In this document: piece after piece, positions 2,825 to 39,916 of the stretch
How the letters are laid out: every line of letters starts with the position of its first letter
How positions within the stretch are numbered: the first letter of the stretch is position 1
Notes under the pieces: model-generated
The model's input: the letters and a program-made list of their open reading frames with translations, nothing else
What the model was told of the DNA's origin: nothing
Database searches by the model: none
NCBI GenBank assembly: GCA_027064425.1
Contig: JAMOPO010000027.1
Location: forward strand, 62,001-126,000
Direction of reading: 5' to 3'
Length of the DNA stretch: 64,000 bases
DNA from: Methanobacteriota archaeon
GTDB taxonomy: Archaea > JAADCQ01 > Methanopyri > Methanopyrales > Methanopyraceae
Translations under genes and position numbers: made by a program

Positions 2825-3580
2825 TCACCTCATCGCACGGATCTCTTCCCACAGCCTGCGCATCGCCGGCGCGGCGCGCTCGCGGATGCACACGTGCATG
2901 TGGTGGGACAGCTGGGTCTCGGAGGGGTTGATCTCGATCAGCCTGGCCCCGTGCTGCCGGGCGATCACGGGCAGGTCGGCGGCGGGCCGAACCTCCCCGG
3001 AGGTGCCGATCACGAGCATCACGTCGCAACCTCGAGCCAGCTCCTCAGCCTCGACGAGGGCGTCCGGTGGGAGGGGCTCGCCGAACCAGACGACCCCGGG
3101 CCGCAGCAGCTCGCCGCACTCGGGGCACCGGGGAGGGAGCTCGTCGTACTCGAGCCCCTCTCCACGTTCCGGGTCGTTCATCCGCTCGTAGTCGCAGTCG
3201 ATGCACTCATCGCGCCAGATGTTCCCGTGCAGCTCGATGACGCGCTCGGAGCCGGCGCGCTGGTGCAGCCCGTCAACGTTCTGGGTGATCACGGCCTCCA
3301 GAAGGCCTTCCTCTTCCATCCTAGCGAGGATCCGGTGCGCGTCATTGGGCTCCGCCTCGGCGATCTTCTTCCGGCGCCAGAGGTACCATTTCCAAACTTT
3401 CTCGGGATCCTTGGCGAACGCCTCCGGGGTGGCGAGCTCGCGGGGATCGTAGCGGTTCCAGAGCCCGTCCTTGCCGCGGAAGGTGGGGATGCCGGAGTCG
3501 GCGGAGGCCCCGGCTCCGGTCAGGGCGACGACGGTCTCGGCGTCCAGGATGAGCTCCGCGGCGCGCTCCAGCTCACTCAT
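2825..3580 (-). CDS. Sir2-family NAD-dependent protein deacylase
   Basis: Sirtuins remove acyl groups from lysine using NAD, for example from chromatin protein Alba in archaea. The 251 residues carry [15 protein letters not shown] (NAD pocket), TQNVDGLHQ, the catalytic histidine in ELHGN, and a four-cysteine zinc site made of CIDC and CPEC. All key residues are present. The ATG start overlaps the end of the upstream radical SAM gene by 8 bases, so the two are probably co-transcribed. Confidence 0.93.
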
Positions 3581-5096
3581 TTTGCTCCTTCCTCCGCTGC
3601 TTCTTCCACTCCTCCAGCGGGACGCCGAACTTCCGCTCGACCTCCTCCCGGTGGATGGTGTTGTAGGCGCAGAACGGGATGATCCGGCCGTCCGGGGTGG
3701 CGTAGTGGATCACGCAGCGCCGCACCCGGTCGACCTGGAAGTTGTACGGGTCCATGAAGTGCATGCAACCGAGTAGGAACGCGTTCCAGTGGTACTCGGA
3801 GAGGGCGTCGTACGTTCCCTTGGTGACCACGTCCACGACCAGACGCGCCAGGCGCTTCTTGCCGGTGATTCCCTTGAAGATCCGGCGGAGGTTCTTGGCG
3901 ATGATCCAGGTTGCCTTGGCCTTGTCCCGCGTCCGCTCCAGGCTGCCAATCTTCCTTGCGACCTTCTCGAGCGTGTCGAGGAAGGCGTCCGGGTCGACGT
4001 AGTCGGTGATCGGCCGGTACCAGTCGTCCTCCTCGATGAGGTAAGTGGCGACGCCGCAGATTGGGTGGGCGGAGAACTCGGGCTTGGGCTCACCGTGCAG
4101 GCGGCCGATCAGGTGCGCGATCTTGGCGGCGACGGGGACGGGGTAGAAGCTGTCGGCGGGGATCCTGCCATCGGTCTGCTCCTCGACGAGCTTGACGAAG
4201 TCTGGGATGGTGATCCGCATCCGCTCGCGCTCCTCTTTCGGCGTCCGGCCGGTGAAGGAGATGGGCTGAACGTTGATCCCGCGGATGACCTCGTACTCGC
4301 GGGCGAAGTCGAGCATGGGTCGGATCTGGTCGTCGTTCACGCCGCGGGCGAGGGTGGGGACGAGGACGGTGGAGAGCCCCACGCGCTCGAGAACCTTGAT
4401 CGCCTCCTTCTTGAGCTCCAGGACCTTCCGGCTGCCGCGCACCTCCTCGTAGATCTCGGGCTTGAGCCCGTCGAACTGCAGGTACACGACGTTGAGCCCG
4501 GCCTCGTGCAGGTCCTCGGCGAGCTCGGGGTTGCGCGCGAACTCGATCCCGTTGGTCGCGATCTGGACGTGGAAGCCGCGCTCGTCGGCCGCCGCGATGA
4601 TCTCGTGGATGTCGTCTCGAACGAGCGGCTCGCCGCCCGCAAACTGGACGGCCGGGGTCTTCACGGGGCGCTCGGAGCGGAGCAGGTCGAGCATCTCCTC
4701 GATCTGCTCGAGGCTGGGCTCGTAAACGTACCCCTTCGCCTCGGCGTTGGCGAAGCAGACCGGACAGTTCAGGTTGCAGCGGTTGGTCACGTCGATGATG
4801 CCGAGGGCGGTCGTGCTGAGGTGACGGTCGCAGAGGCCGCAGCTGCGGGGACAGCCCTCGGAGCACTCCGTCTGCGGGTTCTCGATCCCGGGCCCCTTAT
4901 GCTCGTACTTCATGGCGCGCTCGAACATCTCCACGTCGGACCACACCACCTCCCGGAACTCGCCGTGCTCGGGGCACTTCTTAACTATCTCAACCTCACC
5001 GTTCCCGGTGCGCACCAGCCGGGCCGGAACGATTTCAAGGCACTCCGGGCAGAGGCTCTCGGTCTCGTACAGCACCTCGTTATTCTCGGTGGTCAC
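3573..5096 (-). CDS. tes: Radical SAM enzyme, tetraether lipid synthase (Tes) family
   Basis: The GTG at 5096 is chosen as start because GGGGGTG precedes it and longer versions add a non-conserved Ser/Thr/Pro tail; this gives 507 residues. The radical SAM cluster CNLNCPVC is at residues 107-114. An N-terminal CPEC (16-19), CPEH (41-44) and the cluster C78-C82-C86-C89 supply further metal ligands, a layout known in MJ0619-type proteins. MJ0619 was first tied to methanopterin methylation and later shown to join archaeol chains into tetraether lipids. The divergent neighbour carS, also in ether lipid synthesis, favours the lipid role (inference). Confidence 0.82.
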
Positions 5097-36902: not shown

Positions 36903-37706
36903 TCACCGCTTACCGAACAGTCCCTTGATGATCCTGGACAGGATGCCCTCCTTGTCCGGGACCTCGATCTCGTACTCGATGCCGAGCAGCTCCGCGGCCA
37001 GCTTCTTGAACGCCTGAGCGGCCGCCGACTTGGGGCTGCGCACCACCACCGGCTCGCCGAACGCCGCGGCGCGGCGCACCTCGGGGTCCTCGGGGATCTC
37101 GGCCAGGACCTTGGTCTCGAGGATCTTCTCGATCTCTTCTTTCGTGAGCTCGGTCTTGTCCTTGGTCACCCGGTTAACGGCGGTTCCGGTGACCTCCGTT
37201 CCGACCCGCTCGGCGACCGCCTTGACCTTGAGCGCGTCGGTGATCGAGGCGATCTCGGGGTTAACGACCAGCAGGCACTCGGTCGAGGCTGAGAGGGCTG
37301 TCAGGGCGTCGCGGCCCAGCCCCGCCGGACCGTCGATGAGCAGGAAGTCGGCCTGGTCGACGATCCACTCCACCACGTCCCGGAGCCGCTCCGGGTTGGC
37401 CTTCCGGATGCCCTCCAGCGAGATCCCGGCCGGAACAACTTTCACGCCTTTGGGACCCTCATACACGGCCTCCTCGACCTCGGCCTCGCCGGCCAGCACG
37501 TCGTGCAGGGTCACGGGCGCGTCCTCCATCTGAAGAATCAGACCCAGGTTGGCCATGGCGATGTCCGCGTCCAGGATGAACACCTCCCCATCCATATCCG
37601 CGAGCGCGGTGCCCAGGTTGGCGGTCACGGTCGTCTTGCCGGTTCCGCCCTTACCCGACGCGATGCAGATGACCCTGCAGCCCTCCCTTTCCTCGGACTC
37701 AGCCAA
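36903..37706 (-). CDS. minD: MinD/ParA-family ATPase with C-terminal membrane-targeting helix
   Basis: The deviant Walker A motif GKGGTGKTT (residues 19-27) with the signature lysine, the [10 protein letters not shown] switch and LLIDGPAGL mark it as MinD-type. The last 14 residues, [14 protein letters not shown], form an amphipathic helix like the membrane-targeting tail of bacterial MinD. The start lies 5 bases after the stop of a roadblock-type gene. No MinE or MinC is nearby. I infer a spatial ATPase that cycles on the membrane, with roadblock proteins as partners. Confidence 0.9.
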
Positions 37707-37711
37707 GCTCG

Positions 37712-38590
37712 CTACCCCTCCTCTGAGGGCTTAGCCTTGGACTTGGAAGCTGACGTCTCGGCGGTGAGGTCGATGAGACCCTCCAGGCTGGACGCGAGGG
37801 ACTTGGCAACTTTTTCACACTCTTCGTCAACCTCCTCCAAGTCTGACTCGACGACGAAGGCGACTAAGACATCCTTATAGGGTTTTACCGCCAGAGTTTC
37901 CCCGGAATCGGTCGTGAGCTTTACCCACTCCAGTTCCCCTACCAAGTGCTCGTCCAAGAAGTCCGCCAACCTGCTGACCTCAGCGGCGATTCGGTCCGGA
38001 TTGGATACTCCAGACGAGGCGACCACGAGTCCCTGCCTGTCGGTCACCACGTACGGGGTGTCCGTCTCCTCGGTCGAGGCCGGGAGACTCGCGGACTCTA
38101 TCACCATGCTGAGGTCGTTCCTTAACATGAATATGTCCGCATCCGAGGGCGTTGTCTTGGTCTCGCAGATCGCAATGCTGTCGTTGATCTTGACCGCTAG
38201 GTAATTCGGTCCCTCGCTCTCGGACGACACGATGATCGTGTCCGCGGTCTCAGCGGCCTCGAACACGCTCCTAAGCGCCTCGATGAGCTCGGTCTCGAAC
38301 GACCCACCACCGGACATCCCGATGGGCTTCCCGTCCCTGTCGATGACCACCATCCGCTCGAACCCGAAGTACTCCCTGAGCTCGCTGAGCGCCTTGGACA
38401 TGTCGCGCTTGGCCGTCTCCACCAGCTCGTCCGGCTCCAGCTGCTTAGACGCTATCTGGAGGGCGCGCTGGAGTGCCTCCTCCCTGACCTCCCGAGCCTC
38501 TTCCTCTGGGAGCCTCTCCTCAGTACCCTCCTCCCCTCTCCTGAAGAGCCGCTTGAACTTACCCACTATGCGAGCCACGATGTTCAGCAC
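37712..38590 (-). CDS. Protein with N-terminal amphipathic helix and probable tandem roadblock/LC7 domains
   Basis: The GTG at 38590 follows GGAGGAGG. Residues 1-19 ([17 protein letters not shown]) form a strong basic amphipathic helix, likely membrane-binding. Two following segments have the roadblock pattern: one with [18 protein letters not shown] and one with [15 protein letters not shown], each followed by a helix and a strand. The end is a Ser/Lys-rich tail. The 292-residue protein lies between a single-roadblock gene and minD, all on one strand, so I infer a shared membrane-associated complex. Confidence 0.65.
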
Positions 38591-38641
38591 CCTAAAACCT
38601 CCTCCGAGTCGTTTGAAGGGATTTGGAGGGAGGAGGAAAGG

Positions 38642-38989
38642 TTATAGCTGCTTGGCGATCTCCTCCGCCGCCTCCTGCGCCCTCAGCCGAATGAGACCCA
38701 GGTTGGCGTCGGGGTCGGTGATTAGGACCAGCGTCGCCTCGTCGCTGATCGCAATGATCATCACTTTACCCTCGGACGACTCGATGAGCATCTGCTCCAG
38801 CTCGCCGAGATCCATCTCGTCGACGACTCGCTCTCCCGAACCGTACACCGTGGTGGCGATGGCTCCCACTACCTCCGAGTCGATGTCCGGCGGCACCGCT
38901 TCGGCGATGATCAGACCGTCGCTCGAGACGACCAGCGAGCCGTGCACACCGTCCACGCGGTTCAGATCCGCCAGCACCTTCTCGATCAA
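38642..38989 (-). CDS. Roadblock/LC7 domain protein (MglB-like)
   Basis: The 115-residue protein is one roadblock domain: an N-terminal helix with LNRVDGVHGSLVVSSDG, the strand GLIIAEAVPPD, and ALLVLITDP-like strand TLVLITDPDANLGLIR. In bacteria MglB dimers act as GTPase-activating partners of MglA; in archaea roadblock proteins are abundant, often without a clear partner. A TTG start follows GGGGGT, which lies at the foot of a hairpin. It is the first gene of the run leading to minD. Confidence 0.87.
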   Translation of the reverse strand: MIEKVLADLNRVDGVHGSLVVSSDGLIIAEAVPPDIDSEVVGAIATTVYGSGERVVDEMDLGELEQMLIESSEGKVMIIAISDEATLVLITDPDANLGLIRLRAQEAAEEIAKQL

Positions 38990-39026: not shown

Positions 39027-39048
39027 GCTCAAATAAGGCTTAATTGCT
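39027..39048. promoter_or_regulatory. Shared AT-rich promoter region
   Basis: CTCAAATAAGGCTTAATTGC is the only AT-rich run between the divergent roadblock gene (start 38989) and membrane-protein gene (start 39068). Read on the minus strand, CTTATTTGAG lies about 40 bases before the roadblock start; on the plus strand, AAATAAG lies about 31 bases before the other start. Confidence 0.45.
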
Positions 39049-39067
39049 TTGGGCCGGGGGGACCGCC

Positions 39068-39916
39068 GTGGGCGCGCTGACGGTGACGATTTCGGCCCTC
39101 TCGACCCTACTGCTCGCGGCCCTCGCCTACACGGTCGGGACGGCGGGCCGAATGCTTGGGTCTCCGGCGGTCGCCATCGGCGGGTCCGCCGCCCTTGGGG
39201 TCGCGGCCGGGGCGTTCCTCATCGTTCCGGCGCTCACGGACCTGCCGGGGGTCGTGGCGGAGTTCTGGAGCGAGCAACCGCTGCTGGCCAAAGTGACCGC
39301 CACCCCCTCCGACCTCCCCTCGGCCCTAAAGGAGCTGCGGAGGCACGGGGCGAGACCGGTCGGGTCCGAAGTGACCGTGGAGCTCACGTTGGGGGAGCCG
39401 GTGGACCCGGAGCGGCAGCGCTGGATCGAGCGGAAAGTTCGGGTCGCGTTCCCCGGGATCGGCAGTGCCCGGTTCGCCTCACCGAGCAAGCTGGTGCTGA
39501 CGCTGGACACCAGGCGGGTTAAACTTGAGGACGTGCCTAAGCTGGTCGACAGGGTTTCGGGGTGGATCACCTACACGAGCGGGTACGTGGTGGTCGGTGC
39601 TTCAGCGACCGTGAAGGTTCGGGCGCGGCGGAGCGCGCTGTCCGACGTGCAGGAGAGGTTCCGTGGCCTGGTCAACGTGAGCGTCCTGTTCGACCCGTCG
39701 CGGGTGGTGAAGCAGAGGGTGGCCCGATGCATCCCGGCCCCGGCCACGGCCCTGGCGACGACGGTGGGCGCGTTCGTGCTGCTGGGGGTCGCCGGGTGGC
39801 ACGGCGCGGTCGGTCGGGTAGTGGGGATTATCAGAAGGAAGGTTAGGGAGCTCGAGATTGAGCGCCGGCGGAGGAGGGTAGTGAGGCTTGGTAAGGCTGG
39901 TGAGGTTCAGCGCTGA
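39068..39916 (+). CDS. Membrane protein of unknown function
   Basis: The GTG at 39068 follows GGGGGG and gives 282 residues. Two hydrophobic helices occupy residues 3-25 and 33-57, a soluble domain of about 165 residues follows (with LTLGEPVDPERQRWIERKV), and a third helix lies around 225-245 before an Arg-rich cytoplasmic end. No family is recognised. It overlaps the JAMM gene downstream by 29 bases, so the two are probably expressed together. Confidence 0.6.
   Translation: MGALTVTISALSTLLLAALAYTVGTAGRMLGSPAVAIGGSAALGVAAGAFLIVPALTDLPGVVAEFWSEQPLLAKVTATPSDLPSALKELRRHGARPVGSEVTVELTLGEPVDPERQRWIERKVRVAFPGIGSARFASPSKLVLTLDTRRVKLEDVPKLVDRVSGWITYTSGYVVVGASATVKVRARRSALSDVQERFRGLVNVSVLFDPSRVVKQRVARCIPAPATALATTVGAFVLLGVAGWHGAVGRVVGIIRRKVRELEIERRRRRVVRLGKAGEVQR

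Follow-up and report, generated by a model that had tools for sequence, protein, structure and literature searches.

In bacterial MinCDE, MinD, an ATPase of the same superfamily as the archaeal MinD considered here, works with a membrane-associated partner that is thought to tune it. In the MglA-MglB polarity module, a roadblock protein is paired with a P-loop NTPase that probably acts in spatial control, and MglB is coupled to most MglA genes of prokaryotes (PMC4316618). Among archaea, the Haloferax MinD4 and MinD2 systems act in motility and cell shape; HVO_0596 is an operon partner of MinD2, and deletion of the reported MinD2 partner had no phenotype (PMC11588486). The closest published hint that we found of a connection between MinD and roadblock proteins is their co-listing in archaeal pilus loci, where, according to excerpts of Makarova et al. 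2016 (PMC4858521), MinD/FleN-like ATPases (arCOG00589) are pilus-linked regulators and an arCOG02603 roadblock protein occurs in many loci. Among the open-licence papers searched, we found no account of a MinD-roadblock combination, and none mentions DUF2226. Here we describe a Methanopyrus gene trio in a 64,000-nucleotide stretch of DNA (the window) that combines MinD with two roadblock proteins.

Results

A contiguous roadblock-MinD gene trio

The three genes lie on the minus strand, to which all trio coordinates refer, in the order Robl, dRobl, MinD. A preliminary description had proposed a roadblock protein, a protein with an N-terminal helix and two roadblock-like repeats, and a MinD ATPase encoded on one strand, and all three open reading frames were found as placed there. 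Robl (38642..38989), the first gene, has a TTG start and encodes a protein of 115 aa that matches PF03259 with an E-value of 3.5e-20 and 72 bits, above the Pfam cut-off of 23, and thus is indeed a single-domain roadblock/LC7 protein. It is 83-97% identical in four other Methanopyrus genomes, and relatives in other archaea are 44-52% identical; a second copy, 76% identical to the window Robl, occurs only in the 1.69 Mb Methanopyrus genome (G002:C1:1342985-1343329; L060 5986-6333). dRobl follows after 51 bp and MinD after a further 5 bp, both with GGAGG-type ribosome sites upstream.

MinD (36903..37706; 267 aa, TTG start) scores 400.1 bits (3e-120) against TIGR01969 (minD_arch), with a curated cut-off of 201.75, and matches the solved MinD structure 1hyq at 7e-88. 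Its deviant Walker A motif (KGGTGKT, residues 19-25; 37632..37652), including the signature lysine, is intact, as are A' and Walker B. The C-terminal 17 residues (36906..36956) resemble the MinD membrane motif and form a candidate membrane helix by analogy with other MinD proteins, the hydrophobic moment itself being ordinary (64th percentile, shuffle p 0.26). In a MinD tree, roadblock-linked proteins fall into five separate groups among unlinked ones, consistent with an old association with roadblock proteins that some groups gave up, or with one that was gained several times.

Several variants were seen around MinD genes elsewhere. Locus L111 carries two in tandem (3144-3953 and 4000-4779), the first of which reads KGGVGRTT at the expected Walker A lysine and is perhaps unable to hydrolyse ATP. 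In several euryarchaeal groups, a very small hydrophobic protein of 60-80 aa directly follows MinD (L052 6393-6575, L088 5149-5343, L092 3875-4057, L096 3040-3282, L126 5511-5708), and at L084 2457-6668 the gene directly before MinD encodes a fusion of DUF2226-like domains with HEAT repeats.

In each of the five Methanopyrus genomes searched, the three genes lie side by side. As the entire surrounding region is syntenic in Methanopyrus, this adds little, and we set it aside as evidence. Within the genus, dRobl is the fastest-changing member (40-70% identity, versus 83-97% for Robl and 79-93% for MinD), a pace that might suit an adaptor specific to a cargo or a species. The neighbours examined in the window include no pilus gene and no GTPase, with none of the MglA type inside the four-gene distance from a roadblock gene that PMC4316618 uses. 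None of the adjacent proteins matches a MinC or MinE model. DUF2226 is absent from the trio locus, the two DUF2226 genes of the window genome being on other contigs. Beside Robl, a divergently transcribed gene (39044-39916) encodes a 290 aa protein with hydrophobic ends and no Pfam or NCBIfam match; it adjoins Robl in all five genomes, cut by the contig end in two.

dRobl has two predicted roadblock domains and a basic N-terminal helix

dRobl (37712..38590; 292 aa, GTG start) scores only 17.1 bits against Pfam Robl (cut-off 23), its sequence search finds relatives in Methanopyrus only, and a single-sequence PDB search returned nothing useful. In the AlphaFold model, an N-terminal helix and a linker are followed by domain 1 (residues 64-167; 38090..38401), with the order a-bb-a-bbb-a and a block pLDDT mostly of 73-86, and domain 2 (residues 178-281; 37748..38059), with the order bb-a-bbb-a and a block pLDDT of about 61-75. 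The model was built from a five-sequence alignment and is of moderate confidence, with a mean pLDDT of 62.7 and higher values in domain 1. Roadblock/longin proteins lead its Foldseek matches, with Mon1-Ccz1, LAMTOR2 and MglB (probability 1.00 for each of the three) and Asgard Roadblock3 among them, and domain 2 also gives a profile match to the Robl alignment (hhalign 65%). We consider the assignment of two predicted roadblock/longin domains sound, details of the model being unsure. The proposal had been staked on the middle protein folding as tandem roadblock domains, and it came through with both copies. Since the sequence search reaches no further than Methanopyrus, we judged wider spread from fold and gene context.

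The basic helix claimed for the N-terminus (residues 1-22; 38525..38590) is strongly amphipathic. In the window protein it has a hydrophobic moment of 0.75 (98.9th percentile), a net charge of +6 over 14 residues and a shuffle p of 0.004. Across all five orthologues the moment is 0.71-0.82, at the 97th-100th percentile of N-termini, with a composition-shuffle p of 0.001-0.004 in the four tested, so that the amphipathic character persists across the five species while the residues themselves vary. It is a candidate membrane anchor. Bacterial partners of ParA/MinD ATPases, however, act via charged N-termini (PMC10241942), and by analogy the helix may contact MinD besides, or instead of, the membrane.

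Roadblock-MinD neighbourhoods outside Methanopyrus

Relatives of Robl were found in 34 of the 101 genomes searched. MinD lies within 3.5 kb of Robl in four of the 11 families having both, where 0.33 would be expected (P about 1.5e-4); at this limit, one Methanobacteria genome falls narrowly outside, at 3.6 kb. MinD stands near Robl in Methanobacteria and in a single Archaeoglobaceae genome, whose genes run in the order hydrophobically anchored roadblock protein, coiled-coil protein, MinD, small hydrophobic protein, Robl and DUF2226. A separate contig scan, run with a narrower roadblock alignment as the broad one had no stretch conserved enough, turned up Methanomicrobiales in which Robl, a second roadblock protein and MinD lie close together. 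In Thermococcus, Robl adjoins DUF2226 and no MinD was seen nearby.

A roadblock gene with a candidate membrane anchor, dRobl, stands directly before MinD in Methanopyrus, and a similar arrangement occurs in small-genome archaea, where in seven families the gene between DUF2226 and MinD encodes a protein that is about 150 aa long and carries a helix at its N-terminus. Because these proteins were first picked by position, their own linkage to MinD is circular, but the fold result is independent of that: their model is a roadblock domain (pLDDT about 77-90) and matches LAMTOR2, MglB and Asgard roadblock structures. Early profile comparisons with dRobl were too weak to use and were discarded; a wider alignment gave moderate similarity to domain 1 (hhalign 51%, E 1.5e-4). 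A profile of the seven proteins and three relatives detected a single copy in each of 52 archaeal genomes out of 394. DUF2226 adjoins all 20 of the retrieved loci outside the training set and MinD adjoins 12 of them as well. Together with the Robl families, these loci provide the conserved neighbourhood on which the proposal had also been made to depend.

The small-genome proteins have weaker amphipathic moments (76th-94th percentile) than dRobl, and in the Methanocaldococcus-type protein, which also adjoins DUF2226, a hydrophobic N-terminal segment replaces the amphipathic helix. As the anchor type varies and the roadblock domain is constant, tethering itself seems to be conserved.

Small GTPases and the sepF locus

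The preliminary description had suggested that MinD takes the place of the small GTPase of MglA-MglB systems. This holds in so far as no GTPase adjoins the trio; the genome as a whole gives another picture. The notion that the window genome has no small GTPase at all had to be rejected, as one adjoins DUF1611 at the sepF locus, away from the trio. A second, Arf-like GTPase is present in four of the five Methanopyrus genomes, beside pdxS in the two loci read; in the window genome, it and a 304 aa neighbour are missing at the pdxS site (L173 versus L149), an unassembled copy being possible. In Methanocaldococcus and Methanothermococcus genomes, moreover, a small GTPase is encoded next to the related Robl, which means that one Robl type can have a GTPase or MinD as its neighbour.

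The Methanopyrus sepF locus (L174 3770-5499; L175 3918-6981) reads small GTPase, DUF1611, SepF and an AAA/3H kinase-like protein. Methanobacteria have a MinD-DUF2226-SepF-DUF1611 block with Robl divergent beside it, and the two loci share DUF1611, SepF and two downstream genes, which suggests from gene content that they derive from one ancestral cluster that has since split.

Discussion

We put the probability at about 0.5 that the three genes make up a positioning cassette of the MinD type with roadblock proteins as partners, in which interaction and ATPase control are inferred from folds, motifs and recurrent gene order. In such a cassette, ATP-bound MinD would dimerise and bind the membrane. 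dRobl, tethered by its N-terminal helix and perhaps paired with soluble Robl, would form a roadblock platform on the membrane surface, which would bind or recruit MinD, modulate its ATPase or its release from the membrane, and link it to the cargo that is to be positioned. In related archaea, the cargo side would probably be the division machinery, given the sepF linkage in Methanobacteria, or pili, given a pilus-type ATPase in Methanomicrobiales. The preliminary description had suggested an oscillator or polarity system; an adaptor or anchor role is indicated at least as much as an oscillator. Anchored roadblock proteins of the Methanocaldococcus type, next to DUF2226 with no MinD within 1.5 kb, and the Robl-GTPase pairs show that roadblock and MinD are separable. 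Also counting against the cassette are the lack at the trio locus of DUF2226, which elsewhere is the neighbour found most constantly, the moderate similarity of dRobl to the small-genome protein and the ordinary moment of the MinD C-terminal helix.

The Robl-GTPase pairs also speak for a different view, that the roadblock proteins regulate a Ras- or Arf-like GTPase whose gene lies elsewhere, in the way that MglB regulates MglA, and that MinD is a neighbour from the same pathway with which they make no direct contact. The general coupling of MglA genes to MglB would fit this view, and Methanopyrus has candidates in its sepF-linked GTPase and, mostly, the Arf-like one. Neither is encoded at the trio locus, however, and Robl and dRobl are intact in the window genome, where the Arf-like gene is missing from its usual site. 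In small-genome archaea, it is MinD and DUF2226 that recur beside the anchored roadblock protein, and no GTPase was detected in the 1.5 kb flanks. On balance, we find regulation of a distant GTPase rather unlikely.

Two further explanations concern the cargo and are compatible with a MinD-roadblock positioning cassette. MinD and the roadblock proteins could place or restrain the SepF/FtsZ ring, for which the Methanobacteria block, and the genes it shares with the Methanopyrus sepF locus, provide the evidence. Yet sepF lies elsewhere in the Methanopyrus genome and, in most of the archaea sampled, is not found close to MinD. To our knowledge, Haloferax MinDs are not required for division. The role of Haloferax MinD2 is in motility and the shape of the cell (PMC11588486), and we regard a division-site role of the trio as unlikely. 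Still less probable is that the set numbers or places archaeal type IV pilus machines, with MinD as the FleN-like component. This would be in keeping with the co-listing of both families in the excerpted pilus survey, and a secretion ATPase (PF00437, L126 9111-11366) lies next to the Robl-MinD block of some Methanomicrobiales; no pilus gene, however, is among the examined neighbours of the trio, and it is sepF that lies within the Methanobacteria block. That chance alone brought together three functionally unrelated genes in a gene-dense genome, a view to which the uninformative region-wide synteny of the genus lends itself, is highly improbable, as linkage in other families is far above expectation and MinD recurs at 12 of 20 held-out anchored loci.

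MinD-roadblock pairs in several distant archaeal lineages may represent a positioning system that is apparently undescribed. Roadblock proteins, usually membrane-anchored and accompanied by DUF2226, are a specific and recurrent candidate class of MinD partners in many archaea, some with cultivable relatives. If the cassette operates as proposed, roadblock regulation would extend from GTPases to a MinD ATPase, and in Methanobacteria MinD would be linked to SepF-based division. More speculatively, and with considerable doubt, tethered roadblock proteins could be the partner class of one archaeal MinD lineage with a MinE-like role, one toolkit could serve either a GTPase or a MinD switch, and the sepF-linked cluster of MinD, Robl, DUF2226, DUF1611 and a small GTPase could be what remains of an ancestral spatial-control system.

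Among described systems, MinCDE offers a parallel on the ATPase side, but the trio has no recognised adjacent MinC or MinE, and the roadblock fold of its putative partners has no relation to MinE. The Haloferax systems share an archaeal MinD, whereas roadblock proteins go unmentioned in the MinD2 paper (PMC11588486). Archaeal pilus loci contain both families, although the excerpts of PMC4858521 describe no MinD-roadblock pair, membrane-tethered roadblock protein or DUF2226 linkage. The best fold matches of dRobl include Ragulator/LAMTOR and Mon1-Ccz1, which are likewise membrane-linked roadblock/longin assemblies, but are eukaryotic, serve Rag or Rab GTPases and have a sequence identity of about 10%. 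MglA-MglB, finally, resembles the trio in pairing a roadblock protein with a P-loop NTPase, and differs from it in that the NTPase of the trio is a MinD ATPase rather than a Ras-like GTPase and that there are two roadblock genes, one of them encoding a tandem-domain protein with a membrane-type helix.
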